This document shows positions 28,112-62,705 of a DNA stretch of 64,000 nt, one piece after another. Each line of letters starts with the position of its first letter. Position 1 is the first letter of the stretch. Origin of the DNA: Oscillospiraceae bacterium (GTDB lineage: Bacteria > Bacillota > Clostridia > Oscillospirales > Oscillospiraceae). The position numbers and the translations under genes were made by a program. The notes below the pieces were generated by a model that was given only the letters and a program-made list of their open reading frames with translations, made no database searches and was not told the origin of the DNA. The stretch covers positions 1 to 64,000 of the forward strand of contig SVMM01000009.1 in assembly GCA_015067435.1 (NCBI GenBank), written 5' to 3'.

Positions 28112-28115
28112 AAAA

Positions 28116-28159: not shown

Positions 28160-28169
28160 CTGCTTAAGA

Positions 28170-28550: not shown

Positions 28551-28639
28551 GTGGATAGAAAATCATATTTTGATAGAAAAACAGCCTATGGGTGCAAATG
28601 AGGATGCGTGGGTTCAAAGCAAACGTTTTTTTGCGTTGA

Positions 28640-29335: not shown

Positions 29336-29353
29336 TTTTCCTCAAATCCCGAT

Positions 29354-30405: not shown

Positions 30406-30428
30406 GTTCTCCTCCAAAAACTGGAATT

Positions 30429-30928: not shown

Positions 30929-31091
30929 AAATCGCTTTCCACGCTTCGTCGCAGAAGCCCTCCGGCTTGGAGAAATCTGCATAAAACACCTGCCCGACCT
31001 GATGTGCGGGACAGGCGCAGGTCACGCCGTACTCCTTCGCCAGTTCTTCGTCAAAAGTAGTTTTGATTACTTCAATTTTGCACTTCTTCAT
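30921..31091 (-). CDS. Short TIGR04076-like protein
   Basis: A 56-residue frame (MKKCKIEVIKTTFDEELAKE, then PAHQVGQVFYADFSKPEGFC, ending AWKAIYD) after an AAAGGAA site. It matches the first half of TIGR04076-type small proteins, which usually run to about 95 residues; here a stop follows AIYD. It overlaps the next start by eight bases. It may be a truncated but translated copy. It sits 15 bases after the histidine kinase gene. Confidence 0.6.
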   Translation of the reverse strand: MKKCKIEVIKTTFDEELAKEYGVTCACPAHQVGQVFYADFSKPEGFCDEAWKAIYD

Positions 31092-31106
31092 GATGATTCC
31101 TTTCTG

Positions 31107-32153: not shown

Positions 32154-32821
32154 TCCACCACCGCCTTGTAGCCGAGGCCGCGCACGGTTTTGATGGTAAA
32201 GCCCTCGCAGCCGGAGAGCTTGTCGCGCAGCTTCGTGATGTAGACGTCCACGGCGCGGAGGCTCGTCTCGCTCTCCATGCCCCAGAACTCGTCCATGAGC
32301 TGCGCGCGGGAAAAGGTCTTGTTGGGATAGGACAGGAGCTTGTAGATGATGTTGAACTCCCGCGTTGTGAGCGCGATCTCCTCCCCGCCCGCGCTCGCGG
32401 TCATGGCGTCCGCGTCCAGCGTCAGGTTGCCGACGATGAGTCTCCGCTCCTGCTCGATGTGCGCGCGGCGCAGCAGCGCCTGTACGCGGAGCAGCAGCTC
32501 ATCCAGCTCGAAGGGCTTGACGATATAGTCGTCAATGCCGATCTGGAAGCCCTCGCGCTTCGCCGCGAGATCGTCCCGCGCCGACATGAATAGCAACGGG
32601 ATATTTTTGTTCAGCTCCCGCACGGTCTTTGCGAACTCGAAGCCGTCGATCCCCGGCATCATGATGTCGGAGATGATGAAGTCGTAGAGCCGGGTGTACA
32701 TCTCATCGTAGGCGTCCGACGCGCTCAGCACGCCCTTTGCCTCGTAGCCGTTCGCGCGAAGATAAGTGCAGAGCGCACGGTTGAGCTTTTCGTCGTCGTC
32801 CACCACAAGAATATGGATCAT
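32150..32821 (-). CDS. OmpR/PhoB-family response regulator
   Basis: A 223-residue regulator. The receiver domain has acidic pocket DDD (8-10), phosphorylation Asp in ISDIMMPGIDGF and Lys in VKPFE. The C-terminal winged helix has LTTREFNIIYKLL and AVDVYITKLRDKL. It is co-transcribed with the kinase. Members of this family bind direct repeats spaced 11 bp apart, and four such repeats lie 1.4 kb upstream before the epimerase gene (34180-34217), a likely target. Confidence 0.92.
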   Translation of the reverse strand: MIHILVVDDDEKLNRALCTYLRANGYEAKGVLSASDAYDEMYTRLYDFIISDIMMPGIDGFEFAKTVRELNKNIPLLFMSARDDLAAKREGFQIGIDDYIVKPFELDELLLRVQALLRRAHIEQERRLIVGNLTLDADAMTASAGGEEIALTTREFNIIYKLLSYPNKTFSRAQLMDEFWGMESETSLRAVDVYITKLRDKLSGCEGFTIKTVRGLGYKAVVE

Positions 32822-32874
32822 AGGGGCAGCCCTCCCAATCGTTTTCTTTTTGAAATCTTATCACAAATTGTAAA

Positions 32875-32919
32875 AACGCGCAATCAGGCGGGAACGGCTT
32901 TCCGTTCCCGCCTGATTGC
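32875..32919 (-). terminator. Strong terminator of the epimerase/small-peptide operon
   Basis: A perfect 18-bp stem (arms 32880-32897 and 32902-32919, four-base loop), with a T run on the leftward side. It separates the epimerase operon from the response regulator gene. Confidence 0.9.
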
Positions 32920-32922
32920 TGC

Positions 32923-33009
32923 TTACGCGTTCTTCTTGATGAAGAACACCACAGCGCCCGCAACAGCGGCAACCGCGGCCGCGATGATTGCAATCCACTT
33001 GAAACTCAT
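32923..33009 (-). CDS. 28-residue single-pass membrane peptide
   Basis: The frame reads MSFKWIAIIAAAVAAVAGAV, then VFFIKKNA and stop. It is a single hydrophobic helix with one positive residue before it and two after it. A good ribosome site (AAAGGAG, ten bases before ATG) makes translation likely. It follows the epimerase gene by 26 bases and is ended by a strong terminator, so it is the second gene of that operon. It could be a small regulator of the epimerase or of the short-loop kinase downstream; no evidence decides. Confidence 0.7.
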   Translation of the reverse strand: MSFKWIAIIAAAVAAVAGAVVFFIKKNA

Positions 33010-33035
33010 GTTCCAGCGCTCCTTTCCTCATTTCC

Positions 33036-34100
33036 TTATGCCACCGCCGCATGCTTGGCAGCGGCAATCTTTCCGGATTCCTTGAGCCACGCGATCTCGT
33101 CGCGCATCGTCTCGCGGTAGGAGCGGGTCGTGTAGCCCAGCTCGCGCCGCGCCTTGGACGAGTCGAAGTCGTTGTTGCGGGCGAGGTTATAGATGGAAAA
33201 CGTCGTCATCAGCGGCTTGGTGCCCTTGTGCTTGGCCTGCGCCTCCATCATCTTCGCCATGGCGTTTGCCGCCCAGATCGGCAGGAACATGTGCATCGGC
33301 TTGACGCCGGCTTCCTCCGCCAGCAGGTTTGCAAAGTCGTGGAAGCTGACCTCCTCGTTGCCGAGGATGTAGCACTCGCCCATGCGGCCCTTGTCCGCCG
33401 CCGCGATGATGCCGTCCGCGAGGTCGCGGGCGTCGGCGAGGTTGAACGAGCCGGCGATACCCACGGGCATCTCACCGTTCAGGATGCGGATGATCGTGCC
33501 GGTGGTCTCGCCCACAGCGTTGTCGCCGGGGCCGAGGATGCCCGTGGGATGTACGACGCAGGCGTCGAGCTCATAGTCGCGCACGGCGTCCAGCACCAGC
33601 TGCGTCGCGATGGCCTTGCTCTCGGAGTAGCAGCCGAGCACCCGCTTCGGATCGAAGTGATTGACCTCTGCAATTTTCTGACCCTTCGGCAGCTCCGGGA
33701 TCGCGCCGGTGGAGCTGACGTAGACGAGCTTCTTGCACTCACTGTGCATCACGCAGCAGTCGACGATGTTCCGGCAGCCGCCGACGTTCACGTCCATGAC
33801 CTTCTGGTTGTACTCCGGATCGACGGAGACAAGGCTCGCGATGTGCAGGCAGATGGTTTCGGTGCCCTGCGGCACGGTGAAGAACCGCTCCAGCGATTCC
33901 TTGTCGCACACGTCGCCCTCGAAGATCTCCGCTCCTGTGGGGACGTACTTGATCGCGGGGTCGCCCTTGAGGACGAAGGCGCGGACGCGCTCGCCGCGTT
34001 CAAGCAGCTTGCGGACGACGATGCCGCCCATGAAGCCCGCGGCGCTGGTGACGAGGTAAACGGTATTGTTGGTGGTATTGTGATTGATGTTGGTGTTCAT
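33036..34100 (-). CDS. NAD-dependent epimerase/dehydratase (extended SDR)
   Basis: A 354-residue Rossmann enzyme. The NAD motif is TSAAGFMGG (the usual TGxxGxxG with Ser), followed by DVCD at the second acidic site, catalytic Ser/Thr in VYVSSTGA, and the Tyr-Lys pair in CYSESKA. This order is that of extended SDRs such as dihydroflavonol-reductase-like enzymes. The substrate is unknown. The ATG at 34100 follows GGAGGCTTTATC; the longer frame was dropped. Its upstream region has four 11-bp phased TTTTGT repeats. Confidence 0.85.
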   Translation of the reverse strand: MNTNINHNTTNNTVYLVTSAAGFMGGIVVRKLLERGERVRAFVLKGDPAIKYVPTGAEIFEGDVCDKESLERFFTVPQGTETICLHIASLVSVDPEYNQKVMDVNVGGCRNIVDCCVMHSECKKLVYVSSTGAIPELPKGQKIAEVNHFDPKRVLGCYSESKAIATQLVLDAVRDYELDACVVHPTGILGPGDNAVGETTGTIIRILNGEMPVGIAGSFNLADARDLADGIIAAADKGRMGECYILGNEEVSFHDFANLLAEEAGVKPMHMFLPIWAANAMAKMMEAQAKHKGTKPLMTTFSIYNLARNNDFDSSKARRELGYTTRSYRETMRDEIAWLKESGKIAAAKHAAVA

Positions 34101-34179
34101 GATAAAGCCTCCAATTGATGATCGCGGTCTGTGCCGCGTCGGTGTTGTTTCCTTTAGGATGGCCTTATCATAGACGGGG

Positions 34180-34217
34180 TTTGTTGCTGTTTTGTCAGAG
34201 TTTTGTTTCTGTTTTGT
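34180..34217 (-). repeat. Four 11-bp phased direct repeats (PhoB-type operator)
   Basis: TTTGTT or TTTTGT blocks have their G at 34183, 34194, 34205 and 34216, so the period is exactly 11 bp. On the transcribed strand they read ACAAAA. OmpR/PhoB regulators bind such 11-bp spaced half-sites as head-to-tail dimers; four half-sites would hold two dimers. They lie about 80 bases before the epimerase start. Confidence 0.7.
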
Positions 34218-34231
34218 TAAAATGAGAGAAG

Positions 34232-34260
34232 TGGGCAAGCGCACTTTCGACGCTTGCCCA
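34232..34260. terminator. Hairpin between the divergent epimerase and MerR genes
   Basis: A 10-bp perfect stem (TGGGCAAGCG with CGCTTGCCCA) with a nine-base loop. It has only a short T run, so termination is uncertain; it could instead insulate the two divergent genes. Confidence 0.4.
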
Positions 34261-34374
34261 TTTGCCAAGGTTTTTGCTGCGGTCTGCATGCGGATCAAAG
34301 CTGTCAGAGCTCATTTTTGCTGTCTTCAAATTTCCTCGCAGTCCGTCGGGGCGTACTGTTTTTCAAAAAAGGAC

Positions 34375-34405
34375 TTGACTCTGACGTAACGTCATACTTT
34401 ATTAT
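34375..34405 (+). promoter_or_regulatory. MerR-type promoter with 19-bp spacer and dyad operator
   Basis: TTGACT, 19 bases, TATTAT. The spacer carries the palindrome TGACGTAACGTCA (34382-34394). A 19-bp spacer with a central dyad is the classic MerR-activated promoter that needs DNA untwisting, so the next gene is almost certainly autoregulated. Confidence 0.85.
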
Positions 34406-34435
34406 AGTCTTACCGCAGGCAAGGGGGCAGGTACC

Positions 34436-35161
34436 ATGATGACAGTCCACGAGGTGAGCATGCTGACAGGCGTGAGCATACGCGCTCTACAGTATTATGA
34501 CCGGATCGGGCTCTTGCGTCCGGCAAGCTATTCCGAAGCGGGATATCGTCTGTATGATGACGGGTCTCTGGAGGTCCTGCAGCAGATCCTTCTGTTCCGC
34601 GAACTGGAATTTCCGCTGAAGGAGATCAAACGGATCATCCAGGCCCCCTCCTTCGACCGGGACAAGGCGCTGGAGCAGCAGATCGAGCTGCTTCGTCTGA
34701 AAAAGGAGCACCTGGAAAAGCTGATCGACCTTGCCCGCGAAATCAAAGAAGGAGGAACAGCACAGATGGACTTTTCCGCATTTGACACCGCGAAGATGGA
34801 GGAGTACGCCGCCCAGGCAAAAGCGTCCTGGGGAACTACGTCCGCGTACCGGGAATACGAAGAGAAAACGAAGAACAGGCCGGCAGAGAAAGAACTGGAG
34901 CTTGGCGAACAGATGATGCAGATCTTCGCCGAGCTTGGCAAAGTGAAGGACGGCAGTCCCGCCTCAGAAGAAGCCCAGGCACTGGTCAGGAAGCTGCAGG
35001 CATTCATCACGGAGCACTATTACACCTGCTCCAAGGAGATCCTCTCCGGTCTTGGCCGGATGTATGCCGGCGGGGGCGAAATGACAGAGAATATCGACCG
35101 ATACGGCGGAGCGGGTACCGGCGTATTTGCGAACGAGGCAATTCAGATCTATTGTTCCTGA
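34436..35161 (+). CDS. MerR-family regulator with a TipAS ligand domain
   Basis: A 241-residue regulator. Residues 1-70 are the MerR winged helix (SMLTGVSIRALQYYDRIGLL, then GYRLYDD). A helix-rich linker follows, and residues 110-240 match the TipAS antibiotic-binding domain, including HYYTCSKEILSGLGRMY with its Cys near residue 200. TipA-type proteins bind thiopeptides and other drugs and activate efflux genes. The start is ATG 34436 or 34439 after AAGGGGGCAGG. No efflux gene is next to it, so the target is elsewhere or only itself. Confidence 0.9.
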   Translation: MMTVHEVSMLTGVSIRALQYYDRIGLLRPASYSEAGYRLYDDGSLEVLQQILLFRELEFPLKEIKRIIQAPSFDRDKALEQQIELLRLKKEHLEKLIDLAREIKEGGTAQMDFSAFDTAKMEEYAAQAKASWGTTSAYREYEEKTKNRPAEKELELGEQMMQIFAELGKVKDGSPASEEAQALVRKLQAFITEHYYTCSKEILSGLGRMYAGGGEMTENIDRYGGAGTGVFANEAIQIYCS

Positions 35162-35436
35162 CGCCCGGGAGCGTCTCCTTCATTCGTAGGAGCATCCGGC
35201 CAGCAGTTCGGGAATCAGCTTTTCTCCAGAAAACAAAAGCGGCTGTGGCAAACAGATATCTGTTTGTAGTACCTCGCCCATCCTCTGCATTTCTATAGTG
35301 TTTTGCACCACGGCTAGCCGGCTTCGAAACATTGATACGTTCATTGATTGGGTAAGTCCAATTGTTAAGCAGATGAACAATACATAAGAGAAGCAAGTGG
35401 ATGCGAACCACTCGTTTCCCATCAATCGAAAACAGC
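35162..35436. other. 275-bp gap at the left edge of the prophage-like element
   Basis: No convincing gene. A leftward 81-codon frame (35180-35425, starting MMGNEWFASTC) is open but lacks a good ribosome site and I do not recognise it. The left junction of the element must lie here or just inside the integrase 3' end. Confidence 0.4.
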
Positions 35437-37077
35437 CTATTTCTTCACAAGCAAATTCAGAAGATAAAGTTGTAAAAGCGCCGTGAAATCATTGATTTCA
35501 CGGCGCTTTATGGTGGAGGTTGACCCCTCAAATCCGAACCGCTCAGATGCTTTGAAAGTCTTGGATTTGCAGGAGGTCAAATTATATGCCGTGGTGATCT
35601 CAAAGTCGCCGTCAGGTAACGTCCATACTGTGACCGAGTTCACCATGAGGTCTATGAGCTGCCGTTTGAAACTCTCGTCGTCAATATCTCCGTCCTTGAA
35701 CTGACTGAGCCAATAGATCACTTGGTCACGGTCGAGTCTGAATATCTCCTTTTCCTCGTCGGCGATCTGCCGGTCGAGGTTTTTCTTTTGCTTTTCCAGG
35801 TCAGTCAGTCGATACATGAGGGTGTCCGAAGCGACGCCCTTTTCAATCGCGGTCGCAATGTTGTCGATGGACTTTTGTAGCTCGTCCCGTTTCTCAGTCA
35901 GAGCGGGGAGCTTCGTGTTCTTGGCAATGTCGGCTTCGGTCTGCGCTACGGCAATGTCGGCGATCTCTTCAATGAGATCATCGGAGAGCATGAGCATAGC
36001 GTCTTCGGCTACCCATGTTTCGATAAGCTCCTTTTTGAGCGTTTTCATACGGCAATTACTTGATCGCTTGCGACCGTAGCATTTGTAGTAGTTGTGTACC
36101 ACCCCTGTATGACTTGTGCCTGACTCCCCGTTCATTGCTTGACCGCAATGACCACAAAAGAGCTTCCCTGAGAGTAGGTAGTCAACCTTTGCTTTTCCTC
36201 GCGCCGGTGACTCGCTGTTCTTCTTCAAACGGCGTCCGACTTCGGCGAAGAGCTCCTTGTCGATGATTGCCGGTACGCCGTCCTCGATCTCAATGTCTTT
36301 GTAGCGATATGTGCCGATGTACCTCTTGTTTTTGAACATGGATTTGAAGCTGTTGCGGTTGAACTCGGCGTTCTTCGCCGTCCGATACCCTTTGAGATTA
36401 AAGTCTCGGCAAATGTCGGCGACCGTCCAGCCCTGGACGTACAGCTCAAACGCTTTCTGCACGATAGGAGCGGTTGCGGGGTCAATGACGAGCCGGTGGT
36501 TCTCGATCTTATATCCAAGCGGGACATGACCGCCGATGCTATGACATTTCAAAGCAGACTCCCGCATACCGCGAGTGATCTTCTGCGACAGCTCCGCAGA
36601 ATAGAACTCAGCCATTCCTTCAAGGACGCTTTCGAGAATGATACCTTCGGGGTTGTCGCTGATCTCTTCGGTGACAGAGAGAACCTTGACCCCGTTCTTC
36701 CTGAGCCGCATTTTGTAAACCGCGCTGTCGTTCCTGTTCCTCGCAAATCGGTCGAGCTTCCAGACGATAACGTATTGCCAATGCCGCTTCTCGCTGTCGG
36801 AGATCATTTGAAGGAACTGTACGCGCTTGCTTATGTCTTTTCGGGCAGAGGTTGCGCGGTCGCAGTAGATCGCAACGACTCGGTAATGCCGCAGCTTGCA
36901 GTATGCTATCGCGTCTCGGAGCTGTCCTTCGATGGATTGTTCCTTTTGCCGCTCGGAGCTGAACCGAAGGTAGAGAGCTACGTCGTAGTCGCCCTTGACG
37001 AGTACGACCATGTTCTCGTCGAATTGCGCTACCTCTTCGGGTGTCAGCATAGAGAGGTCGATAGGGTATTTCTTCAT
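35437..37077 (-). CDS. Large serine integrase
   Basis: A 546-residue recombinase. The resolvase domain has the catalytic Ser in YLRFSSERQ (near 45) and the Arg motif KLDRFARN. It is followed by the recombinase domain (GGHVPLGYKI, NKRYIGTYRYKD), a zinc ribbon (CGHCGQAM, CYGRKRSSNC) and a coiled coil from about 390 to 460. The ATG at 37077 follows GTGGAGAAAG; the upstream GTG is less likely. It would integrate and, with a directionality factor, excise the element. A bidirectional hairpin lies inside the 3' end of the frame, so the last 35 codons may not be conserved in relatives. It lies 24 bases after the repressor gene on the same strand. Confidence 0.92.
   Translation of the reverse strand: MKKYPIDLSMLTPEEVAQFDENMVVLVKGDYDVALYLRFSSERQKEQSIEGQLRDAIAYCKLRHYRVVAIYCDRATSARKDISKRVQFLQMISDSEKRHWQYVIVWKLDRFARNRNDSAVYKMRLRKNGVKVLSVTEEISDNPEGIILESVLEGMAEFYSAELSQKITRGMRESALKCHSIGGHVPLGYKIENHRLVIDPATAPIVQKAFELYVQGWTVADICRDFNLKGYRTAKNAEFNRNSFKSMFKNKRYIGTYRYKDIEIEDGVPAIIDKELFAEVGRRLKKNSESPARGKAKVDYLLSGKLFCGHCGQAMNGESGTSHTGVVHNYYKCYGRKRSSNCRMKTLKKELIETWVAEDAMLMLSDDLIEEIADIAVAQTEADIAKNTKLPALTEKRDELQKSIDNIATAIEKGVASDTLMYRLTDLEKQKKNLDRQIADEEKEIFRLDRDQVIYWLSQFKDGDIDDESFKRQLIDLMVNSVTVWTLPDGDFEITTAYNLTSCKSKTFKASERFGFEGSTSTIKRREINDFTALLQLYLLNLLVKK
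35475..35509. terminator. Bidirectional hairpin inside the integrase 3' end
   Basis: A 15-bp perfect stem (AAAGCGCCGTGAAAT with ATTTCACGGCGCTTT). It shares the CGCCGTGAAAT core with the hairpin at 28517-28550 beside the other serine-recombinase remnant. Confidence 0.65.
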
Positions 37078-37101
37078 AGCAGCTTTCTCCACTCTTCGAG
37101 A

Positions 37102-37470
37102 TTAACCAGCCGTTGACGCCGAAGCATTTTTTCTCTCTTCGTTGGTACGGTCATACTCATTCATTGCGATTTGAATGATACGGAGCTTTCCGTCTTCGTC
37201 ACAGTTTGAGAAGTAATGCACCAGCCGTTTTGTCAGACCTTCGGGCGTATCGAGTATATCCAAGAGCTGACGCTTTATATCGTCGATACCCAAGAGATAG
37301 TCGGTCGAAACGTCGAAGTATTGCGCGAGTTTAACGAGGGTGTTTCCGTCAGGAACAGTCCCGTTCTTCCAACGAGTCAAATTGCCTGGACTCATACCGA
37401 GTTCGGAGAGAAGATTACTGATCTTCACTCCTTTCTCGTCGCATAGGGCTTTTATGCGGTCGAAAAACAT
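37102..37470 (-). CDS. XRE-family phage repressor
   Basis: A 122-residue protein with an N-terminal Cro/C1 helix-turn-helix (ISNLLSELGMSPGNLTRWKNG, then LAQYFDVSTDYLLG) and a short C-terminal helical part, no protease domain. The start follows GGGAGGTAG. It is divergent from the Cro-like gene and heads the repressor-integrase operon, the standard lysogeny layout. Confidence 0.88.
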   Translation of the reverse strand: MFFDRIKALCDEKGVKISNLLSELGMSPGNLTRWKNGTVPDGNTLVKLAQYFDVSTDYLLGIDDIKRQLLDILDTPEGLTKRLVHYFSNCDEDGKLRIIQIAMNEYDRTNEERKNASASTAG

Positions 37471-37519
37471 GATACTACCTCCCTGTGAAAAATATTTTTC
37501 GCAAAGTGTAATTTTAGGG

Positions 37520-37548
37520 TTGACAATTACCTTTTGAGGTAGTATATT
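37520..37548 (+). promoter_or_regulatory. Early rightward promoter of the prophage-like element
   Basis: TTGACA, 17 bases, TATATT, in the switch region between repressor and Cro-like gene. Transcription would start near 37555, the first base of a 16-bp repeat arm. Confidence 0.8.
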
Positions 37549-37554
37549 GATAGC

Positions 37555-37705
37555 GTAATCACCAACAACTTTACAAAAGGCAATGAAATCCCCGCCCCTG
37601 CCGGTTTTCTTTTTCGGCGGGAGCTATCCAATGGTTCGTATGGGGTGGCACTCACACTATACCATTGACGACTCTCAAAGTCAAGAAAGAGTTGTTGGTG
37701 ATTAC
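37555..37705. repeat. 16-bp perfect inverted repeat around the switch region
   Basis: GTAATCACCAACAACT at 37555-37570 is repeated inverted at 37690-37705, with 119 bases between. The left arm is at the expected transcript start, the right arm 16 bases before the Cro-like ribosome site. It could be an operator pair, an mRNA stem that controls translation, or an invertible segment. The segment between arms has a second GC-rich hairpin (about 37590-37622) and no gene. Confidence 0.75.
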
Positions 37706-37732
37706 AAGAAAACAATGAAGGGAGGTAGGGAC

Positions 37733-37957
37733 ATGGGTGAGCGTCAGAGCTTGCGAGAGCGGTTGCTTCACAATCATCTTTCGTATGCGTGGCTTATCAA
37801 TATGATGAAGCTCAAAGGTTTCGAGGTTGACAAGTCCACCGTAAGCTCGGCGGTCAACGGAACGATTACCGGCGACCGTGTGACCAAGATCAACGAGATT
37901 GGTCATGCCATTCTCGACAAGTACGAGAATGAGTTTCTGAGTTCCATGAAGTCGTGA
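37733..37957 (+). CDS. Small Cro-like DNA-binding protein
   Basis: A 74-residue protein with a helix-turn-helix-like region (HNHLSYAWLINMMKLKGFEV, then STVSSAVNG). It starts after GGGAGGTAGGG and lies opposite the repressor, so it probably drives the lytic or induced state. Confidence 0.7.
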   Translation: MGERQSLRERLLHNHLSYAWLINMMKLKGFEVDKSTVSSAVNGTITGDRVTKINEIGHAILDKYENEFLSSMKS

Positions 37958-38121
37958 GCGGCTTCACACCAGAGAAACAAGCCCAAGCGTCAGCCCTCGG
38001 TATGACCGTAGCTGGCAAAGTCCGAGAGTTCTTCAAGGACAAGCAGCACCGCAAGGATTTTGAACTCTGGTACGAACGGAAGTACGGAAGACCGTACCAA
38101 TGGAAGAAGGTGAAGGTATGA
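37954..38121 (+). CDS. Small phage protein, 55 residues
   Basis: A GTG start at 37954 overlaps the previous stop (GTGA). The frame reads MSGFTPEKQAQASALG, then VAGKVREFFKD and WYERKYGRPYQWKK. It is basic and unrecognised. The overlaps with genes on both sides support translation. An internal ATG at 38002 is the alternative start. Confidence 0.6.
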   Translation: MSGFTPEKQAQASALGMTVAGKVREFFKDKQHRKDFELWYERKYGRPYQWKKVKV

Positions 38122-38339
38122 AGAAGTTTTGCGGCATCTTAGCGTTTCTCTCGTTCTTTTATGTTCTCGGCGTTGTCGGCGGCATGGAGAATGACATGAT
38201 CGGACTCGGAGAAGGTTTCGTTCGAGCAATGATCGCGCTCGTCCTTATGGCTCTGTTTGCGCGGTTCGCTGGTGCTTATGACTACGCCGACACCGAAAAA
38301 GAAGACCGCCAACAGGAACGGCACTCCTGTCGGCGGTAA
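38118..38339 (+). CDS. Small two-helix membrane protein
   Basis: A 73-residue protein with membrane segments FCGILAFLSFFYVLGVVGG and RAMIALVLMALFARFAGAY and a charged C-terminus. The ATG overlaps the previous stop (ATGA). The family is unknown; small membrane proteins at this place in phages often act in superinfection exclusion, which is inference. Confidence 0.6.
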   Translation: MKKFCGILAFLSFFYVLGVVGGMENDMIGLGEGFVRAMIALVLMALFARFAGAYDYADTEKEDRQQERHSCRR

Positions 38340-38386
38340 GCAAAATGCTCAATCCAATAATAACACAATCTATTTGGAGGTTCAAC

Positions 38387-38899
38387 ATGAAATTCAACAT
38401 TCAGATCACCGTTGAAGAGGACAAGGGCTGCAAGCCCGTTATGATCGCTCCCGTGATTGAGGACGACGAACTGCACGTCGGCGAGGTCGTTGACTTCCAG
38501 CTCACCACCGGCGAGAAAGCTCAGTTCATGGTTCAGCGCGTGGACGAAGACGGGTATCTCTGTATGCTCGTTGACTGTCTTCCCAAAGCGTACTCCATGA
38601 ACAAGGAGAACACCAACAAAGGCGGGTACGCTGAGTCCGATCTTCGCAAACTGCTGAAAGGAGAAATCCTCGATCTGTTCCCCGCTGATCTGCGGGAGCT
38701 GATGCTGCCGTTCTCGAACGGTGATCTTCTGCGTCTGCCGACCGAGAAGGAAATCTTCGGTAAGAACGAATACGGTGCGGACGAACCCGAAAGCGTCAAT
38801 GATAACTTTTGCTTTGCCGTAAAAGCTCTTTCTTCCGTTCGTCGGGGTCAAGTCGTAGATACGCATTTTAATATACTCCTTTCAACTAAGTTAAAATAA
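38387..38899 (+). CDS. DUF6273-like protein, probably truncated
   Basis: A 170-residue protein after ATTTGGAGG. The block GGYAESDLRKLLKGEILDLF and PTEKEIFGKNEYG resembles DUF6273 domains of clostridial phages. The expected C-terminal Trp-rich half is absent: after NFCFAVKALSSV the sequence changes character and stops. The 650-base gap behind it suggests a deletion removed its end and probably the replication genes. Confidence 0.6.
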   Translation: MKFNIQITVEEDKGCKPVMIAPVIEDDELHVGEVVDFQLTTGEKAQFMVQRVDEDGYLCMLVDCLPKAYSMNKENTNKGGYAESDLRKLLKGEILDLFPADLRELMLPFSNGDLLRLPTEKEIFGKNEYGADEPESVNDNFCFAVKALSSVRRGQVVDTHFNILLSTKLK

Positions 38900-39546
38900 T
38901 GGGCTAAAGTTATGCTCTGCTGTCCTCTCACGATAAAAAGAGGGGCTTGCAATGGGCTTTTCTATGGTCTATTATACACGATTTTAATTTACTGTCAAGA
39001 GGTAAATTAAAAATATATTCAAGATTTTGTTTAAGCCCTGCCGCGCTGCCGGTCGGCTGATCTTCCAGGGCTTGCGGCTGATCTGGTATTATTGCGGCTC
39101 TTCCAGGGCTTGCGGGGCTTGTCTGCCGGTTATCGCTCTGCCGGTCGGCGTCGGCTGATCTGGTCGGGGGCAGGGGGATAGAGGGACGGCAGCAGGGGCG
39201 GGGTGAGTGCGAAAAATACCGCAAAAATTAAAAAGGACTATTTAACTTTACCTCTCCTATGTTAATTTAACTATCTCCCGTTTCTTAAACTAAAAATCCA
39301 GCGCAAAAAGAAAAAGACCCCCTATTTTTGCTCTGACACCCCTCGATTTCCCCGATATTTTAATTTAATCTCGATTTTATTCAAAGAAAAAGTGAATAAT
39401 CTAAGCGTTTTGCTATAAAGTCCTCTATAGAGAGCATACTAAGAAAAACTTATGGAAAAGTGACTAATATTATTCACTTAATTTCAATTTACCTATTGAC
39501 AGTTTATTAAAATCGCTGTATACTCGCCTTGTCAGGAGGGACGAAC
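38900..39546. other. Gene-free region with GC-rich repeats and AT-rich flanks
   Basis: No gene. The 39040-39180 part is GC-rich and repetitive: TCTTCCAGGGCTTGCGG occurs at 39061-39077 and 39099-39115, GGCTGATCTGGT at 39076-39087 and 39153-39164, CTGCCGGTCGG at 39046-39056 and 39138-39148. The flanks are AT-rich with repeated TTAATTTA-like words. This could be an origin, a packaging (pac) site or a deletion scar. Confidence 0.6.
39496..39524 (+). promoter_or_regulatory. Strong promoter of the second serine recombinase
   Basis: TTGACA, 17 bases, TATACT, 22 bases before the start. It is likely to drive recombinase, lipoprotein and perhaps the terminase operon. Confidence 0.85.
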
Positions 39547-40365
39547 ATGAGTGAACTGAAAAGAGCAATCGGGTATATCCGAGTATCGACCAAGCAGCAA
39601 GCCGACGATGATAAGTACGGCATCGAAATCCAGCGGCAAGCCATACTGACCTATGCCGACGCGAACGGCTACTACATTTCCGATTGGAAGATTGACAAGT
39701 ACAGCGGCGCGAAAGACGACCGCCCTGAGCTGAACGCAATTCTCTATGGCGACGATGTGACCAACCCGCCCGTTGAAGCGGTCATTACCTTCAAGAATGA
39801 CCGTATGGCGAGGGACACCAAGCTCTACTTCTACTACCTCTACACGCTCGAAAAGCGCGGAGTGAAGCTGCTGACCGTCAACGAAGAGTTTGACGAGGGA
39901 AGCGAGTTTGCGAACATCTATCGTGCGCTGTTGCAATTTGTCGCGGAGCAGGAGCGGAAGAACATTGCGCTTCGTACCGGCAAGGGTCGGTCGATCAAAG
40001 CGTCTTGCGGCGGGTACAGCGGCGGTCGCTGTCCGTATGGGTACAAGGTGGTAGATCACCGGCTGGTTATCAATGAGGACGAGAAGCCCATTGTCGAGTA
40101 TATGTTCTATGAGAACGACAAGGGTACGCCCATGTTGACCATTGCCGAAAATCTCAATGCCCGTGGGTGCAGGACTCGTAAGGGGACGACCTTCCAGGCG
40201 GCGACGGTGAAGAGTGTTCTGAGCAATCGTCCGCTGTACGAGGGCAAGTACAAGTACGGAAAAGACATGAAGTGGGTGCAGGGAGTCCATGAGCCGATCT
40301 TGACGGCTGGTGAGCCGGTGAGCAATCCGCTTCTGTCCGAGAGCGGTAAAATCAAGTTGATATAA
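39547..40365 (+). CDS. Second serine recombinase, short form
   Basis: A 272-residue recombinase with catalytic Ser in YIRVSTKQQ (near 13), the Arg motif FKNDRMARDT and a recombinase domain (GGRCPYGYKV, NRPLYEGKYKYGK). It ends there, without the zinc ribbon and coiled coil of large integrases. The start follows TCAGGAGGG. Being opposite in strand to the integrase, it may be an invertase, a resolvase or a truncated integrase. Confidence 0.88.
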   Translation: MSELKRAIGYIRVSTKQQADDDKYGIEIQRQAILTYADANGYYISDWKIDKYSGAKDDRPELNAILYGDDVTNPPVEAVITFKNDRMARDTKLYFYYLYTLEKRGVKLLTVNEEFDEGSEFANIYRALLQFVAEQERKNIALRTGKGRSIKASCGGYSGGRCPYGYKVVDHRLVINEDEKPIVEYMFYENDKGTPMLTIAENLNARGCRTRKGTTFQAATVKSVLSNRPLYEGKYKYGKDMKWVQGVHEPILTAGEPVSNPLLSESGKIKLI

Positions 40366-40375
40366 GGGAGTGCGT

Positions 40376-41005
40376 ATGAAGAAACTGCTTATGATCTGTG
40401 TTTTGGCTCTTGCGTTGCTCCTGTCCTCCTGTGCGGCGAGTGAGCCGACGCCGAAAGCGAACCTGGCTGACAGTTTGGAGATCAAAGAATACTCCTGCGT
40501 GATCGACAAGCAGTTTGCCTACTATGTCGCCTTTGTCACCAACACGTCAGACAAGACGCTCGATGTGGAGATCAACATAACGGCGAAAGACGCTGACGGC
40601 AATATGGTCGGCTCAGGAACGGCGTCAGTTCTTGCCGTTGGCTCTGGTCAAACGTCTGGACTCTGGACGACCTTTGACGAGTGGAAGTCGATTGACAGTT
40701 TCGAGTATGTATTGAACGTCAAAGAGTCCTTTTACTTGCCGATTAAAGACATGGTATCATTCGATCATAGCGAAACAGACAGTCGAATTGTTATGTCGGC
40801 GACTAACGGCGGTGAGAAAGACGCTGAGTTCGTTTGGGTTGATGTGGTGTTTCTGAAAGATGGGAACATGGTCAACTTCCGAGAGATCATGCTGACGAAC
40901 GGCGACTGTGTTCTTCCTGCGGGGCAGACCTTGACCGGCGAGGGCGAAGTGTTTTCTCAATACGACGACCTGGTGTTTGCTTACAACGGACGTATTCATA
41001 AGTGA
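40376..41005 (+). CDS. Lipoprotein with an FxLYD-like beta domain
   Basis: A 209-residue protein with signal MKKLLMICVLALALLLSSC, lipobox LSSC, then a beta-rich domain (YVAFVTNTSDKTLDVEINIT) of the FxLYD type, repeated loosely near residue 135. It begins 10 bases after the recombinase stop. Phages of Gram-positives often carry a lipoprotein that blocks superinfection; this is a plausible but unproven role here. Confidence 0.75.
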   Translation: MKKLLMICVLALALLLSSCAASEPTPKANLADSLEIKEYSCVIDKQFAYYVAFVTNTSDKTLDVEINITAKDADGNMVGSGTASVLAVGSGQTSGLWTTFDEWKSIDSFEYVLNVKESFYLPIKDMVSFDHSETDSRIVMSATNGGEKDAEFVWVDVVFLKDGNMVNFREIMLTNGDCVLPAGQTLTGEGEVFSQYDDLVFAYNGRIHK

Positions 41006-55427: not shown

Positions 55428-55504
55428 GGAGGCTTAGCTCAGCTGGTTAGAGCGCCTGCTTCACACGCAGGAGGTCACTGGTTCGAGTCCAGCAGTCTCC
55501 ACCA
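55428..55504 (+). tRNA. tRNA-Val (anticodon CAC), attachment site of the island
   Basis: A 77-base cloverleaf: acceptor GGAGGCT/AGTCTCC, anticodon stem CCTGC/GCAGG with loop TTCACAC, T-arm ACTGG/CCAGC (one A-C mismatch), encoded CCA. A tyrosine integrase gene pointing toward its 3' end begins 180 bases away, the standard layout of integration into a tRNA 3' end. Confidence 0.93.
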
Positions 55505-55684: not shown

Positions 55685-56746
55685 TCACATCGCCGCGCGA
55701 ACCTTTTCGATGGTCGTCTGCTCGCGGGATGCGCGATCATAATGCGTATACACCCGGAGCGTCATATCCACCGAGCTGTGCCCGGCAAGGTACTGGATCT
55801 CCTTGATGTCCAGCCCCGCCTCAAAGAGCCGGGTGATGTAGGTGTGGCGGAGGATGTGCGCCGTGACGTGCCGCTCGGGCAGCTCGCGCTCGATCAGCCG
55901 CCACATGCTCTTATAAGAGGAGACGGTCATGGGCTGGTGGTTCTGCATGGCGAGGATGTACTGCGAGTGCGTGCGCTTCTTCTCGGCAAGCAGATGCGCT
56001 TCCAGCGTCTCGGTGAGCGGAATGTCGCGCCGACCGGCCTTGGTTTTCAGCTCGTCGGAGAGCTTTGTGCCGCCGCGCATCAGCACGGCGTTGCGGCGGA
56101 CGTGGATAAGCTTCTTCTCGAAATCCACGTCGTCCCATTTCAGCGCGAGGATTTCGCCGCGCCGCATCCCCGTGTTGAGCGCGATCAGAAGGAAGGTCTT
56201 GGCGCGCGGGTTCCTGACGCGCTCGATCAGCTTCTCGCACTCCTGCGGCGTCAGCGCAGTCTTTTCCTGCGTCTTCTTGCCACCGGGTTTGAGCATACTG
56301 CTGACCGGGGAGCGGACGATCAGGCCGTTTTCCTGCGCCGCCTTGAAAATGCTACGCAGGTTGATGAGAACCTTGGACTGCAGGCTGTTGCTCTTTCCGA
56401 CGAGCCCGGACATGATCGCCTGGATCTGCATCGGCGTGATGTCCTGCAGGCGGTAACCGCCGATGACCGGCAGGATGTGCTGGTTGAGGATGTACTTGAC
56501 CATCTCCTGGCTCTTATCACGAAGATAGGGCTTTTTGTACACGTCGTACCACATCTGCGCGAAGTGTCCGAAGGTCTCCTCGCTGCACACGTCCACGCCG
56601 GAGTGCGTGAGGATCCTGACCTCCATGACCTTGTCGTCCAGTTCCTCCTGCGTCTTGGCATAGACCTCCTTGCGCTCACCGTTGGGGAGTTGAAGTGTCT
56701 TGCGCTTGTACTGATATTTTTTCGTCTGCGTATTGTTGGTTGCCAT
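55685..56746 (-). CDS. Tyrosine integrase of the island
   Basis: A 353-residue integrase: an N-terminal AP2-like arm-binding part (YQYKRKTLQLPNGERK), a SAM-like core-binding domain (60-160), and a catalytic domain with Arg in GMRRGEIL, HILRHTYITR, GHSSVDMTL and the nucleophile Tyr in VYTHYD. It fits the Tn916/phage-type integrases that use tRNA 3' ends. The start follows AAAGGAG. It reads toward tRNA-Val. Confidence 0.93.
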   Translation of the reverse strand: MATNNTQTKKYQYKRKTLQLPNGERKEVYAKTQEELDDKVMEVRILTHSGVDVCSEETFGHFAQMWYDVYKKPYLRDKSQEMVKYILNQHILPVIGGYRLQDITPMQIQAIMSGLVGKSNSLQSKVLINLRSIFKAAQENGLIVRSPVSSMLKPGGKKTQEKTALTPQECEKLIERVRNPRAKTFLLIALNTGMRRGEILALKWDDVDFEKKLIHVRRNAVLMRGGTKLSDELKTKAGRRDIPLTETLEAHLLAEKKRTHSQYILAMQNHQPMTVSSYKSMWRLIERELPERHVTAHILRHTYITRLFEAGLDIKEIQYLAGHSSVDMTLRVYTHYDRASREQTTIEKVRAAM

Positions 56747-56949: not shown

Positions 56950-57381
56950 TTACAGGCCTTCGATGATGTGCAGATCTTGCCCGGATATTCTATATGTAGC
57001 CATGCCAGCCTTCGCTATAGGGAACGTTGCAGGCAGGATTCCCTTCCACGCAAAGCTGAAATGATAGATGTTTTTCTCCCGGGTGGTTCTTCCGGAATAG
57101 CGGAGAATAAAGCCCGCGTTTTCCAGCGCCCTGACGTAATTCCAAAACGATCTGGCGGCGATGCCGTATTTTTTCGCTGTGGAGGCGGGAAAGCAGAAGG
57201 TTCGGTGACCTTTGCTTTCCGTTGCCATGCAGAGATACAGGTTCTTTGCACCGTCAGGCAGGGACTGGTATGCCTTGGAATGGTACAGGGAGCTGCCGGC
57301 CTGTATGAAGCTGGTCTCGTTGTTGTCCGGGTCGGCAGACAGCCAGCCGACGATCTGAGCCTTTTTCCTGCGCCTGCTCAT
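56950..57381 (-). CDS. Helix-turn-helix-like protein beside the excisionase
   Basis: A 143-residue basic protein (MSRRRKKAQIVGWL). The middle (SLPDGAKNLYLCMATESKG, then STAKKYGIAARSFWNYVRALENAGFI) looks like a replication-initiator or DnaD-type winged helix. It overlaps the excisionase gene by four bases (ATGA), so the two are co-translated. It may be a replication or transcription factor of the island. The ATG at 57381 follows AAGGAG by 11 bases; a GTG at 57393 is the alternative. Confidence 0.6.
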   Translation of the reverse strand: MSRRRKKAQIVGWLSADPDNNETSFIQAGSSLYHSKAYQSLPDGAKNLYLCMATESKGHRTFCFPASTAKKYGIAARSFWNYVRALENAGFILRYSGRTTREKNIYHFSFAWKGILPATFPIAKAGMATYRISGQDLHIIEGL

Positions 57382-57614
57382 TGGATGCGCCACTCCTTCC
57401 TGATCTCGCTTTCGCGGGCGGGCGCGGGAACGGCGGTGCCTTCAAGGTACGCCTCCAGCGCTTCGATGGTGACGAGGTACTTCTTCCCGACCCGCACGCA
57501 GGGCACCTTCCCGGTGCGCAGCAGCGTGCGAATGGCATATTCGGTCAGGGCGGTCTGCGGATCGACGCTCTTGAAGTGCGCCGCAGCCTCCTTGATGGTT
57601 CTCGTATGGATCAT
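57378..57614 (-). CDS. Excisionase-family DNA-binding protein
   Basis: A 78-residue protein with the MerR/excisionase-like fold: TEYAIRTLLRTGKVPCVRVG, then KKYLVTIEALEAYL. It likely bends DNA to direct the integrase toward excision. The start follows CAAAGGAG. It begins the short operon that ends with the integrase. Confidence 0.82.
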   Translation of the reverse strand: MIHTRTIKEAAAHFKSVDPQTALTEYAIRTLLRTGKVPCVRVGKKYLVTIEALEAYLEGTAVPAPARESEIRKEWRIQ

Positions 57615-57770: not shown

Positions 57771-58694
57771 CTATTCAGCCTCGCCCTTGCGCTTCTTCCC
57801 AGCCGACGCGAGATAAATGTCCGTCACGTCGGCGCGCTCATGCCCAAGCAGGCGGGAGACCGCAAAGTGCGCCTCCAGCGCCCCGGTGCCGTTCTCAGTC
57901 AGAGTGTGGTACTTGACCGCCGCGTAGGTGTGCCGCAGCCCGTGGAAGGTCAGATTCGCCTCGCGGTCGGGATCGGCAATCCCGTCGCGGTGCTTGATGA
58001 TGAACAGCTGGACGCCGTTGATTGCGCGGTCGGTCGGCACGTCGTCCGGAACGAACAGTTTGTGCCCGCGCTCCGTTTTATTGAGCATCCTCCGAAGGGC
58101 AATGCGGACACGATCATCCTCAATGGGAACGGTGCGAATCTTGCCGCCCTTGCCCTTGACGGTGATGGCATCCTCGCGCAGCGCGCGCTCCGCCGTGGCT
58201 GTATCGAGCCTCATGACTTCGTGGATGCGCAGACCGGCATAGCGGCCGAGATAGAGCGCGCAGGCGATGTCGTCGCGACCCTCGCCGACCGCCTTGCCGA
58301 TCATGCGGTTGAACTCCGTCGCGCTCCACGTCCGGTCCACGCCGCCAAAGCGCCGACGCTCCAGCTCGACGCTCAACTCGTCGTTGTCCGGCAGCCGGTA
58401 CTTCGCGTTCATCTTTTCGTGGAAGAAGCGGATCGCCGCCAAGTCGGTCTTGATTGTGCTCGCCGACTTCCCATGCTCCTGCATGTACTCCACATACGCG
58501 ACAAAATGCTTCCCGCTGACGTTCGAGAGCTTCTGCATCCGATACTCCTCAGCCAAGAACCGGCAAAACCGCTTCATCGCCTCATAGTACCGATCCCTCG
58601 TCCGAAAGGCTCCCTGCCTGTTATGCCTTGCCAGCCTGTCCAGCTGGTCGACAAGAGCGTTATAGATGCCCCTGTCCTTCTCGTTGATCTTCAT
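57771..58694 (-). CDS. Second tyrosine recombinase
   Basis: A 307-residue recombinase with a SAM-like N-terminal domain (AFRTRDRYYEAMKRFCRFLA) and a catalytic domain: Arg in AGLRIHEV, FHGLRHTYA, LLGHERADVTDIYLA with the nucleophile Tyr. It has no arm-binding domain, so it is XerC/D-like in build. The ATG at 58694 follows TTTGGAGGAA; the longer frame was dropped. It may resolve, invert or transpose DNA within the island. It lies downstream of the RNA array. Confidence 0.88.
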   Translation of the reverse strand: MKINEKDRGIYNALVDQLDRLARHNRQGAFRTRDRYYEAMKRFCRFLAEEYRMQKLSNVSGKHFVAYVEYMQEHGKSASTIKTDLAAIRFFHEKMNAKYRLPDNDELSVELERRRFGGVDRTWSATEFNRMIGKAVGEGRDDIACALYLGRYAGLRIHEVMRLDTATAERALREDAITVKGKGGKIRTVPIEDDRVRIALRRMLNKTERGHKLFVPDDVPTDRAINGVQLFIIKHRDGIADPDREANLTFHGLRHTYAAVKYHTLTENGTGALEAHFAVSRLLGHERADVTDIYLASAGKKRKGEAE

Positions 58695-58854: not shown

Positions 58855-59232
58855 TTATGAAATTGGGCGTTTAGTACGTTCACCGCACAGGGTATCGCTC
58901 CCTGCCGCAGCGTCAGACGAAGCTCCGGCGCTGCGCGCGGTCGACACAACCGCTGGTATCGGTCGCGGCGGAGTTGCGCCGCGTGTGTCGGTTGATCCGC
59001 CCGGCAGCGGATCGGTGCGAGGGAACGTCTGCATGACCGAAACCGCGATCAGGGACAAGCCCGCGCAGATCCATGTGCGCTTAGCGCCGGTAAGAGCGCT
59101 CTGCGCTTTCATGGAATCCGCATGACCGTGGCATACAGACCGGGACTGCCAAGATCCCTTGGTGCTCTTCGCCCCGCACCCATGGGCAGTCAAATTCTTC
59201 TCCTCTGCGGTCCTAACCAAGCTGGCGCGCAT
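58855..59232 (-). CDS. Hypothetical one-segment membrane protein
   Basis: A 125-residue frame with an excellent ribosome site (AAAGGAGG, eight bases before ATG 59232). The N-terminal 50 residues are basic and hydrophilic, then one membrane segment (WICAGLSLIAVSVMQTF, about 55-72), then a Pro/Ser/Ala-rich tail. Not recognised. It lies between RNA copy A and the second recombinase and could be expressed by read-through of copy A. Codon quality alone does not prove it is real. Confidence 0.45.
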   Translation of the reverse strand: MRASLVRTAEEKNLTAHGCGAKSTKGSWQSRSVCHGHADSMKAQSALTGAKRTWICAGLSLIAVSVMQTFPRTDPLPGGSTDTRGATPPRPIPAVVSTARSAGASSDAAAGSDTLCGERTKRPIS

Positions 59233-59312: not shown

Positions 59313-59500
59313 TACAAAACGAGGGCGTACATTTCGTACACTCTCGTCTCCTACAGTCGTTCTCTGGGATCACCGCCGGAAGGCAGGCTTTCCCAGATCA
59401 CATATTCAAGGCATAGACAGACTACACCCACTGCCTGAGTCACAGACTCTCGGCTCACTGCTTAGTAAGTGCCCAACGCGGGAGACAATCTAATAAGAAC
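59313..59500 (-). ncRNA. Structured RNA copy A of a three-copy array
   Basis: A leftward unit with a TACAAT -10 (59507-59512). The RNA starts with the conserved box CTTATTAGATT (59487-59497), a CCC/GGG hairpin, a second box (CTTACTAAGCAG, 59458-59469), GACTCAGGC (59433-59441), a further stem (TCTGGGA with TCCCAGA) and ends at a clear T-tailed terminator (59313-59347). Copies B and C share the same boxes. The -35 is weak. It may be a free small RNA or the leader of the gene at 59232. Confidence 0.6.
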
Positions 59501-59672
59501 AATGCCATTGTAGCGCCGCTCTTACAGATCATCTATAATACCTAAATCTATAAAGGGAAAATTGCGCATGGCTCTCAAACGCAGTGTTCATGCGGGTTTG
59601 CGGTCTCTGCGGTCTTCTAACCGACGAAAAAAGCTTTTCGTCATCTAAAAATTATCTGGGCTGTGCAGCCAT

Positions 59673-59774
59673 AAAAAAGGGTGCACTACGTCCATGGTGC
59701 CTGAGTCATCGCTCATAGGCTCACTGCTTAATAAGATCCCTCAATTCCGGGATAAGGATAATCTAATAAGAACA
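59673..59774 (-). ncRNA. Structured RNA copy B
   Basis: Same 5' core: CTTATTAGATT (59761-59771), an ATCCC/GGGAT hairpin, CTTATTAAGCAG (59724-59735), GACTCAGGC (59699-59707), ending at a run of six T. It has the best promoter of the three. A second T-rich hairpin at 59623-59642 could be a back-up terminator. Confidence 0.65.
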
Positions 59775-59780
59775 AGGTCA

Positions 59781-59809
59781 TTATACCGGATGAATTTTCA
59801 TCTGTAAAT
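59781..59809 (-). promoter_or_regulatory. Promoter of RNA copy B
   Basis: TTTACA, 17 bases, perfect TATAAT on the minus strand. In all three copies the -10 begins exactly ten bases from the CTTATTAGATT box. Confidence 0.8.
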
Positions 59810-59943
59810 GATACCAGAATCCGACCTTCCCTTTGCAAAACCCGCATGTTTGGCCGTGATTTGCCCTGCCGCATCGGATTTCAAATTCTCTCGGCTATTC
59901 GATTTCGCGGGCAAACCAGCCTTTCAGGTCGTATTCGGAAGCG

Positions 59944-60207
59944 AAAAGGGCATAGTAAGCCCTATGTCTCGCCGTTCCTCCCTCGTTTACTCCGCCCTCA
60001 TTTACTCCGCCCTGGAATCAAGTTCATTGTAGCACCACGGATCGGAGCGTGTATAGTTGGAGTTTTTCCAACAGTGAACCAAATCACGGCCGAACAGGGC
60101 AGCGCCCATGCCGACCACGCCCGAGACTCATGCTCAAGGGCCTGCTGCTTAATACGTCCCCGGCCGCTCCATCGAGGGTTGCGGGGAAAGCAAAATCTAA
60201 TAAGTAC
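59944..60207 (-). ncRNA. Structured RNA copy C
   Basis: Core boxes CTTATTAGATT (60194-60204), a CCCC/GGGG hairpin with a longer loop, TATTAAGCAG (60146-60155) and GTCTCGGGC (60119-60127). Promoter TTGCGA, 18 bases, TATACT (60214-60243). The 3' end is uncertain: a hairpin AGGGC/GCCCT with TTT near 59944-59963 is the first terminator-like signal. Confidence 0.5.
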
Positions 60208-60301
60208 ACGGATAGTATAAATCGCGGCACCAAGGCTTCGCAACAATACCGAAATCCGGCAGGAAGGGTGCAAAAACGTGCAGGGGCGATTTGCTCGGCG
60301 G

Positions 60302-60369
60302 ATTGCAACATATCACACGCGTGCAATAATTATGCTTGACAGCATTACACGCGTGTGATATGTTGCAAT
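60302..60369. repeat. 22-bp perfect inverted repeat operator
   Basis: Arms at 60302-60323 and 60348-60369 are perfect inverted copies, each with the core CACACGCGTG, separated by 24 bases. The right arm covers the spacer and -10 of the promoter of the next gene. Each arm is itself nearly palindromic, so two dimers could bind. Confidence 0.85.
60336..60364 (+). promoter_or_regulatory. Promoter of the AlbA_2 regulator gene
   Basis: TTGACA, 17 bases, TATGTT. The -10 and most of the spacer lie in the right arm of the inverted repeat. Confidence 0.75.
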
Positions 60370-62135: not shown

Positions 62136-62504
62136 TCAATGTGACTTATTGCCGGATGTATCCAATGTGGCCAGATATGCCGCGAGGATCGCAATGAACT
62201 CGGAGGCGGTCGGTCGGCTGTAGAGCCGATGCCTGGCGAGTTCACACAGAAGCTCCGGGTTGCTGAGCCAAGCAGTATTGGAGGCGCGGCGAAGACTGCG
62301 CTCTACCGTGCGCCAGTTGGTTCCGTATTCCTTCGCGACGGCGGGGTAGAGGATCTTGGTCGCGTAGGTGACCGACCCAGGCTGCCCTGCGGCTATCCGT
62401 ATCGCATATGCGGCGTGAAAAAAGCTGACGGACGACGCGTTCAGCCCCAGACGATACAGGATATCATAAACTTCGCTATTTTGCATTTGCAATGCTGTTT
62501 TCAT
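62136..62504 (-). CDS. Orphan Spo0A C-terminal-like DNA-binding protein
   Basis: A 122-residue protein that is almost only a Spo0A effector domain: ATKILYPAVAKEYGTNWRTV, ERSLRRASNTAW and RPTASEFIAILAAYL align with the Spo0A blocks ITKxLYPdIAKK, VERAIRHAIEVAW and KPTNSEFIAMVAD as I recall them. It has no receiver domain. The ATG at 62504 follows ACGGGAGGC. It is encoded on the island, opposite to its neighbours. It could compete with or mimic Spo0A at 0A boxes. Confidence 0.82.
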   Translation of the reverse strand: MKTALQMQNSEVYDILYRLGLNASSVSFFHAAYAIRIAAGQPGSVTYATKILYPAVAKEYGTNWRTVERSLRRASNTAWLSNPELLCELARHRLYSRPTASEFIAILAAYLATLDTSGNKSH

Positions 62505-62705
62505 AGTTGCCTCCCGTTTGTCAACAAATTCAGCCTGATTCGGCTCTACATAACTTATTTGAGGAAAAGACAAATTTGTGACATTTATTGGTCCAAAAAA
62601 TCAAATTATCCCAAATAGGTAGTGCTAACTATACCTAACTGGGCGTTCACCTTTTACCTGAAGGGAAATATAATAATACCTATCAGGAACAGGGAGGGAT
62701 CAAGC

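Follow-up and report, generated by a model that had tools for sequence, protein, structure and literature searches.

A tandemly repeated structured RNA at the head of recombination and integration operons on mobile elements of Oscillospiraceae, with a possible role as a cis-acting antitermination leader

What is the role of three closely spaced copies of a structured RNA, each placed directly behind a promoter, on a mobile element of the Clostridia? The question is raised by positions 1 to 64,000 of contig SVMM01000009.1 (assembly GCA_015067435.1, Oscillospiraceae bacterium), a stretch of 64,000 nucleotides referred to here as the window, in which an earlier note had described three leftward units with a shared order of parts as an unnamed structured RNA. 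Such units, A, B and C, are present on the minus strand at 60219-60119, 59785-59699 and 59512-59433, counted from the -10 box to the end of the second hairpin (Table 1). Each consists of a -10 box, 9 nt, box 1 (CTTATTAGAT), a hairpin H1 with a variable loop, a CTTATTAAGCAG-like box 2 and a hairpin H2, and the RNA core is 68-89 nt long. The distance from the -10 box to box 1 is identical in all three, as had been noted. The distance between boxes 1 and 2 is variable as claimed, with start-to-start values of 48, 35 and 28 nt rather than 48, 37 and 29. What had been read as a third conserved box is the 3' side of H2: GACTCAGGC is present in copies B and C only and is replaced by GAGTCTCGGGC in copy A, because this stretch is one strand of a hairpin and not a conserved box. 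Box 2 of copy A reads CGTATTAAGCAG, and the exact box 1-box 2 pattern matches copy B alone, with no match in 100 shuffles of the window. A simple promoter scan of the window listed B (11/12) and A (9/12) and did not list C. A covariance model built from the three copies (R1) identifies, at E <= 1, these three places only in the 3.3-Mb genome.

Table 1. Positions of the units and neighbouring features in the window (H1 is given as its two strands).
Feature	Position	Strand	Basis or remark
Upstream element GATTTCGGTAT, unit A	60246..60256	-	37 nt 5' of -10
-10 box TATACT, unit A	60214..60219	-	sequence
Unit A RNA core, predicted +1 to H2 end	60119..60207	-	covariance-model match, 59.6 bits
Unit A parts	box 1 60204-60195; H1 60187-60182/60162-60157; box 2 60156-60145; H2 60141-60119	-	
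Upstream element GATTCTGGTAT, unit B	59811..59821	-	36 nt 5' of -10
-10 box TATAAT, unit B	59780..59785	-	sequence and simple promoter scan
Unit B RNA core	59699..59773	-	covariance-model match, 81.1 bits
Unit B parts	box 1 59770-59761; H1 59753-59749/59740-59736; box 2 59735-59724; H2 59720-59699	-	
Upstream element GATTTAGGTAT, unit C	59538..59548	-	36 nt 5' of -10
-10 box TACAAT, unit C	59507..59512	-	sequence
Unit C RNA core	59433..59500	-	covariance-model match, 84.4 bits
Unit C parts	box 1 59497-59488; H1 59482-59479/59475-59472; box 2 59469-59458; H2 59454-59433	-	
Terminator-like hairpin 3' of unit C, weak U tail	59325..59341	-	scan total 7 vs 5.4 in shuffles
xerDC RNA (RF03062), between units and recombinase gene	58869..59013	-	73.1 bits, gathering 72.5
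Xer-type tyrosine recombinase gene, downstream of units	57771..58694	-	NCBIfam below curated cut-offs; start by eye
HTH_17 excisionase-like gene	57378..57614	-	27.9 bits, cut-off 27; NCBIfam below cut-off
Tyrosine integrase gene at element end	55685..56746	-	domain search
Attachment repeat at tRNA 3' end	55459..55504	.	perfect 46-bp copy at contig 75461-75506, beyond the window

The units are part of a 20.0-kb element (55505-75506) inserted at a tRNA gene, the 3' end of which recurs as a 46-bp repeat at both element boundaries, in agreement with the earlier suggestion of a mobile element. On the minus strand they are followed by the xerDC RNA, the Xer-type recombinase gene, the excisionase-like gene and the integrase gene. 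The xerDC RNA shares the leader and the downstream recombinase gene with the units, in the window and in locus L015, the only two places where it reaches the gathering score, and it forms a separate family that does not overlap with the units. Several further features of the element were observed. The segment 59970-60072 (minus strand) between units A and B holds direct repeats of GGGCGGAGTAA followed by GGGAGGAACGGCG and is kept in L015 at 8411-8512 (76% over 106 nt), with similar repeats seen by eye in L008. A near-perfect, operator-like 26-bp inverted repeat at 60302-60369 lies in the interval between unit A and an SLFN_AlbA_2 regulator gene (60387), and at 62136-62573 (minus strand) the element encodes a possible regulator, a small protein whose DNA-binding domain is of Spo0A type. 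At L015 12245-12328 a c-di-GMP-I riboswitch is found near two tRNA genes, 3' of the integrase of the G285 element.

Homologues of the units exist elsewhere and share promoter spacing and structure. R1, made from three sequences, found the unit in 7/300 sampled genomes of its own family and in 4/394 of the order, the own genome included. A second model, R2, made from 11 sequences and including the promoter, matched 14/400 family genomes at E <= 0.05, of which 11 were accepted (own included), one (G020) was excluded as an apparent truncated remnant and two (G176, G041) were dropped for their coding-sequence look. At the level of the order R2 matched 5/384 genomes, one of them doubtful, with one accepted carrier in a sister family and the match in G482 dropped, again for a coding-sequence look; at class level only the own genome was matched (1/391). 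These large genome searches used stricter filters, by which weak copies may be lost. Within the genus 2/18 genomes carry the unit, own included, and the distribution is therefore patchy. One unit (61.5 bits) was found on a human faecal contig labelled as phage (MT839755.1), and tandem pairs about 150-290 nt apart also occur in G155, G210, G236, G291 and G011. A copy at 1196-1279 of locus L024, a contig of a Bacteroidales MAG (RGIG8520), has score and alignment equal to the copy in L016 (Pseudoflavonifractor phocaeensis An858), which may reflect misbinning or recent transfer. Box-pattern scans of viral contigs gave no match, blastn of unit C against plasmids and phages gave none either, and three loci with xer relatives in viral contigs were without a unit. 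Pattern matches in Methyloprofundus (17.0 bits), in Clostridium SIG253 (14.7 bits), in Chryseobacterium (11.3 bits, elsewhere in the locus) and in L021 (no model match) were judged to be chance.

No Rfam 15 family reaches its gathering score at the units, none appears in searches at E <= 10 or E <= 0.1, and no match to a known family of repeats or recombination sites was obtained. Rfam holds both EAR and STAXI. The stretch 28000-40751 of the HK022 record, in which we take both put sites to lie, gave no R2 match up to E 10 and no R1 match, and matches in the vanB element record NC_011642.1 (R2: 13.2 bits, E 0.147, 3' of int on the other strand; R1: 8.4 bits, E 1.1) were judged to be chance. In the literature searched, supplementary tables aside, no description of the motif was found, and the integrase-associated candidates of PMC8040213 may include it. 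The RNA family is apparently undescribed.

The structured RNA family is real, which is supported most strongly by H2. Across 16 units H2 has a mean identity of 31%, and in a test in which the hairpin halves were swapped between units, own halves reached -9.2 to -9.4 kcal/mol vs about -5.6 kcal/mol for swapped ones; none of 5,000 permutations (18 units) and none of 20,000 (16 units) reached the own-half value, while 273/5,000 did so in a promoter control region. Near-identical copies from G155, G236, G291 and G655 were excluded from most of these 18- and 16-unit tests, and in win_A and G039b the anchor for H2 had been moved one base by hand. A cruder swap test with contiguous stems gave 64/3,000 for H2 and 81/3,000 for H1, and shuffles of H2 in individual units were mostly not significant singly. 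H1 is less certain than H2. A stem ending 0-3 nt from box 2 is predicted in 21/21 units, a place that was prescribed in the search, and shuffles of single units reach such a stem in 0.7-28.7%. It takes forms such as UCCC/GGGA, CUCC/GGAG, AUCCC/GGGAU and GCCC/GGGC, and its swap test is weak (175 to 511 of 5,000). In a model-fitted alignment of 29 matches, which leans to the structure, 90.2% of cells pair, compared to only 31-55% when the structures are slid along the alignment. Moreover, 27 cells changed on both sides vs a shuffled mean of 10.0 (0/500 as high); two of five measures on this alignment do not beat shuffles, namely pairs changed on both sides (229/500) and further pair types (310/500). 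A three-pair mini-hairpin in box 2 was unsupported (79.8% paired, no double change). The claim of selection on RNA structure thus holds for H2, which covaries, and to a lesser degree for H1, which covaries weakly, so that of the two stem-loops near the predicted transcript start one is firm.

Box 1 follows the -10 box at 9 nt in 28/28 units tested, whichever type of promoter is present, and this constant spacing makes the conserved G of GTNTTTATTAG the very probable first base of the RNA. A GATTTNGGTAT-like element (<=3 mismatches) lies 36-37 nt 5' of the -10 box in 20/28 units, TTGACA at 17 nt takes its place in 7/28, and a single unit (G236a) has neither. The view that every copy has its own promoter fits the window and the homologues with the same spacing; it fails for the copy in L065 (G583), counted outside these 28, which is without the family's promoter and sits behind another leader RNA.

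The position of the units in their operons is also conserved. We examined 19 loci: eight of xer type, five of ssb or YqaJ/RecD type, L065, four ending at a contig end, and L062. In all eight loci that hold an xer related to that of the window (the window itself and seven further ones) units precede this gene in the same orientation, the nearest about 0.7-1.0 kb 5' of xer, with excisionase and integrase genes 3' of xer by eye in most of them. In 5/5 ssb or YqaJ/RecD-type loci the unit precedes the operon, and in L065 it precedes an operon with Rep, Tn916-type Xis and Int. The only exception among the 15 loci with a readable downstream side is L062, an isolated copy facing a convergent gene. As an example, the G154 element, in which alone VirB4/TraG-like and VirD4 genes were confirmed, has one unit before ssb and another before an operon with N6 methylase, YqaJ and RecD2; the same gene kinds were judged by eye to be present in L013, L016 and L063. 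This place at the front of operons for recombination and integration points to cis-acting leaders rather than free-standing RNAs.

Next to their place at the operon head, six leaders, all of ssb or YqaJ/RecD type (two each in G154 and G039, one each in G210C4 and MT839755.1), have a predicted strong terminator before the first gene, the T-run of which ends 125-148 nt past the predicted start. In both ssb operons a second strong terminator lies right 3' of ssb and the next gene starts 37-45 nt further on. A terminator also separates upstream genes from the unit promoter in two loci (L016, L013). Strong terminators are found mainly in conjugative-type leaders and that of L065, many xer-type units have a weak terminator or none, and few further strong ones occur inside YqaJ/RecD-type operons. 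Any terminator call within 300 nt was obtained for 15/23 non-redundant units and for none of the remaining 8, compared to 23/138 in mononucleotide shuffles.

This arrangement resembles that of HK022 put or Tn916 canT and suggests that the unit might be a cis-acting antitermination leader, a reading inferred from the arrangement of parts that we hold tentatively, at a little under an even chance. Each unit would then comprise a promoter and the first ~70-90 nt of its transcript, which would start at box 1 and fold into two hairpins flanking a conserved single-stranded box. While leaving RNA polymerase the nascent RNA would modify the polymerase, alone or together with a protein, and the modified polymerase would read through terminators before and inside the excision, ssb and recombination operons, whereas polymerases entering from elsewhere would lack the tag and stop at the terminators. 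Induction would act via the upstream element. In the window the transcript would proceed through the xerDC RNA into xer, xis and int, and after excision it would, as happens in Tn916, continue over the junction of the two ends and cover the remainder of the element. Because the tag would work in cis only, each promoter would need its own copy of the RNA. Such a cis-acting read-through tag would best explain the presence of the RNA at the 5' end of the transcript from each promoter, of either type, the distance of 0.7-1.0 kb between unit and gene and the repeats at tandem promoters.

There are precedents for such RNAs on mobile DNA, namely put, conAn2 and canT (PMC9378689, PMC8955417, PMC11658703). 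The putRNAs of HK022 (putL and putR) are described as ~70 nt in length with two stem-loops, they occur as two copies at operon heads, putL directly behind its own promoter, and they act on downstream terminators (PMC9378689). The units resemble them in size, in the two stem-loops and in the promoter-adjacent place at the operon head, and differ in host, conserved single-stranded boxes and tandem arrays. The canT RNA of Tn916 is an RNA antiterminator behind an element promoter, between orf8 and xis and with an insulator terminator; a 291-nt fragment is reported as inactive, fragments of 341 and 452 nt as active (PMC11658703). The same position, behind a promoter and 5' of excision and integration genes, is found in the window and in seven further xer loci, with a unit core of 68-89 nt as opposed to 341 and 452 nt for the active canT fragments. 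In pLS20, ConAn1/conAn2 is described as a processive antitermination system with an RNA heading a Gram-positive conjugation operon that has many internal terminators (PMC8955417). It works together with the protein ConAn1, in contrast to the units, for which a protein partner is only a possibility. EAR of Bacillus eps operons is another RNA antiterminator in Firmicutes (PMC8955417, PMC11658703), while the units are without any Rfam match. Furthermore, the conserved structured sequence EGeRS1 is repeated before several establishment operons of pLS20-family plasmids; by its description it differs from the units in its size of 400-600 bp, as against 68-89 nt, and in that no strong promoter is reported for it in PMC8708921, whereas the units lie behind a promoter.

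Alternatively, the conserved RNA might be a regulated attenuator that senses a ligand, a tRNA or an element-encoded protein and controls the adjacent terminator only. The order of promoter, motif, terminator and gene is the classic one for such a device and the conserved boxes, being unpaired, might serve as a binding site for a protein or ligand, yet the terminators argue against it. In the six leaders the 5' arm pairs within the terminator: the probability of an upstream partner is <=0.01 in 6/6, and the best upstream complementarity is no better than in shuffles in 6/6. A riboswitch-like alternative pairing was therefore not found. Moreover, neither a nearest unit ~0.7-1.0 kb away from xer nor a copy kept at each tandem promoter is needed for a local switch, and the second terminator 3' of ssb is at odds with control of the adjacent one only. 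We consider the attenuator unlikely, at roughly one chance in four; a variant of it, a protein-triggered antiterminator without alternative pairing, would merge into the reading as a cis-acting antitermination leader.

It is less probable still that the tandem promoters produce trans-acting small RNAs, which would be ended by the leader terminator and would pair with or sequester a target. The units do have their own promoters, tandem paralogues, a conserved C-rich H1 and, in the six leaders, a short predicted transcript of ~125-148 nt. However, the C-rich strand of H1 is predicted to be paired, the units lie on the same strand upstream of the operon in all readable loci except L062, and in the five leaders scanned neither inspection by eye nor a simple scan showed a promoter in the interval from terminator to gene. 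A device acting as DNA, i.e., a set of sites for a recombinase, a set of operators or an Frpo/STAXI-type promoter that works as single-stranded DNA in conjugative transfer, is very unlikely. The neighbouring genes for ssb, N6 methylase, an IMS-family polymerase and Xer resemble leading-region genes (PMC11541004), and STAXI is likewise a tandem structured motif, usually in three repeats, close to genes for SSB and XerDC integrases (PMC2864571). STAXI is described there as mainly a pseudoknot and possibly single-stranded DNA, though, and no Rfam family matched the units. The -35/-10 region does not fold as single-stranded DNA in 17 units (mean z -0.38, -0.48 and 0.08), the core as DNA has no unusual stability (mean z -0.85), the conserved hairpins lie downstream of the predicted start, and the box spacing ranges from 28 to 48 nt in the window. 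Finally, conservation for a leader peptide is extremely improbable and was ruled out on reading frame: some units read as short frames of the form M-x-L-L-D/E, but the frame of box 2 with respect to box 1 takes all three values (9, 7 and 2 of 18), start codons vary, one unit has an immediate stop and the 5' end leaves no room for a ribosome site.

Two other leaders were observed at related operons. A second unnamed structured RNA was seen in L080 at 7330-7620 (Vescimonas fastidiosa plasmid NZ_AP023417.1), in L065 at 7895-7913 and in L087 at 1275-1293; it has a promoter, a predicted three-way junction closed by GUGC/GCAC and a conserved CACACGTTGTTAAGYTTGT, with a terminator seen by eye in L080 and L087. 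It precedes an exonuclease/RecD operon in L080 and sits just 5' of the unit in L065; Rfam searches of the L080 and L087 copies up to E 0.1 gave no match, and it was found in none of 96 sampled family genomes. A third kind, in L085 at 2650-2990 (MT836313.1), combines a promoter, a structured-looking leader and terminators, and precedes a gene related at 42% identity to the ~385-aa gene that opens the YqaJ/RecD-type operon; this opening gene has no Pfam or NCBIfam match. Operons related to this recombination operon thus carry two further unnamed structured leaders in the place of the unit, so RNAs of this sort may form a larger set.

The papers cited here name few RNA-based processive antiterminators (put, EAR, conAn2 and canT). 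It is possible, with about one chance in three, that the units represent a new class, i.e., a very short processive antiterminator of Gram-positive gut bacteria that consists of RNA only and serves as an interchangeable tag at every excision, ssb and recombination promoter, common to conjugative and small integrative elements. If this is true, it would be an antiterminator much smaller than canT, the conserved core and natural variants of which would be ready material for structure-function tests. It would also account for the way in which excision and recombination genes on conjugative and small integrative elements in gut bacteria are kept silent and are yet switched on jointly.
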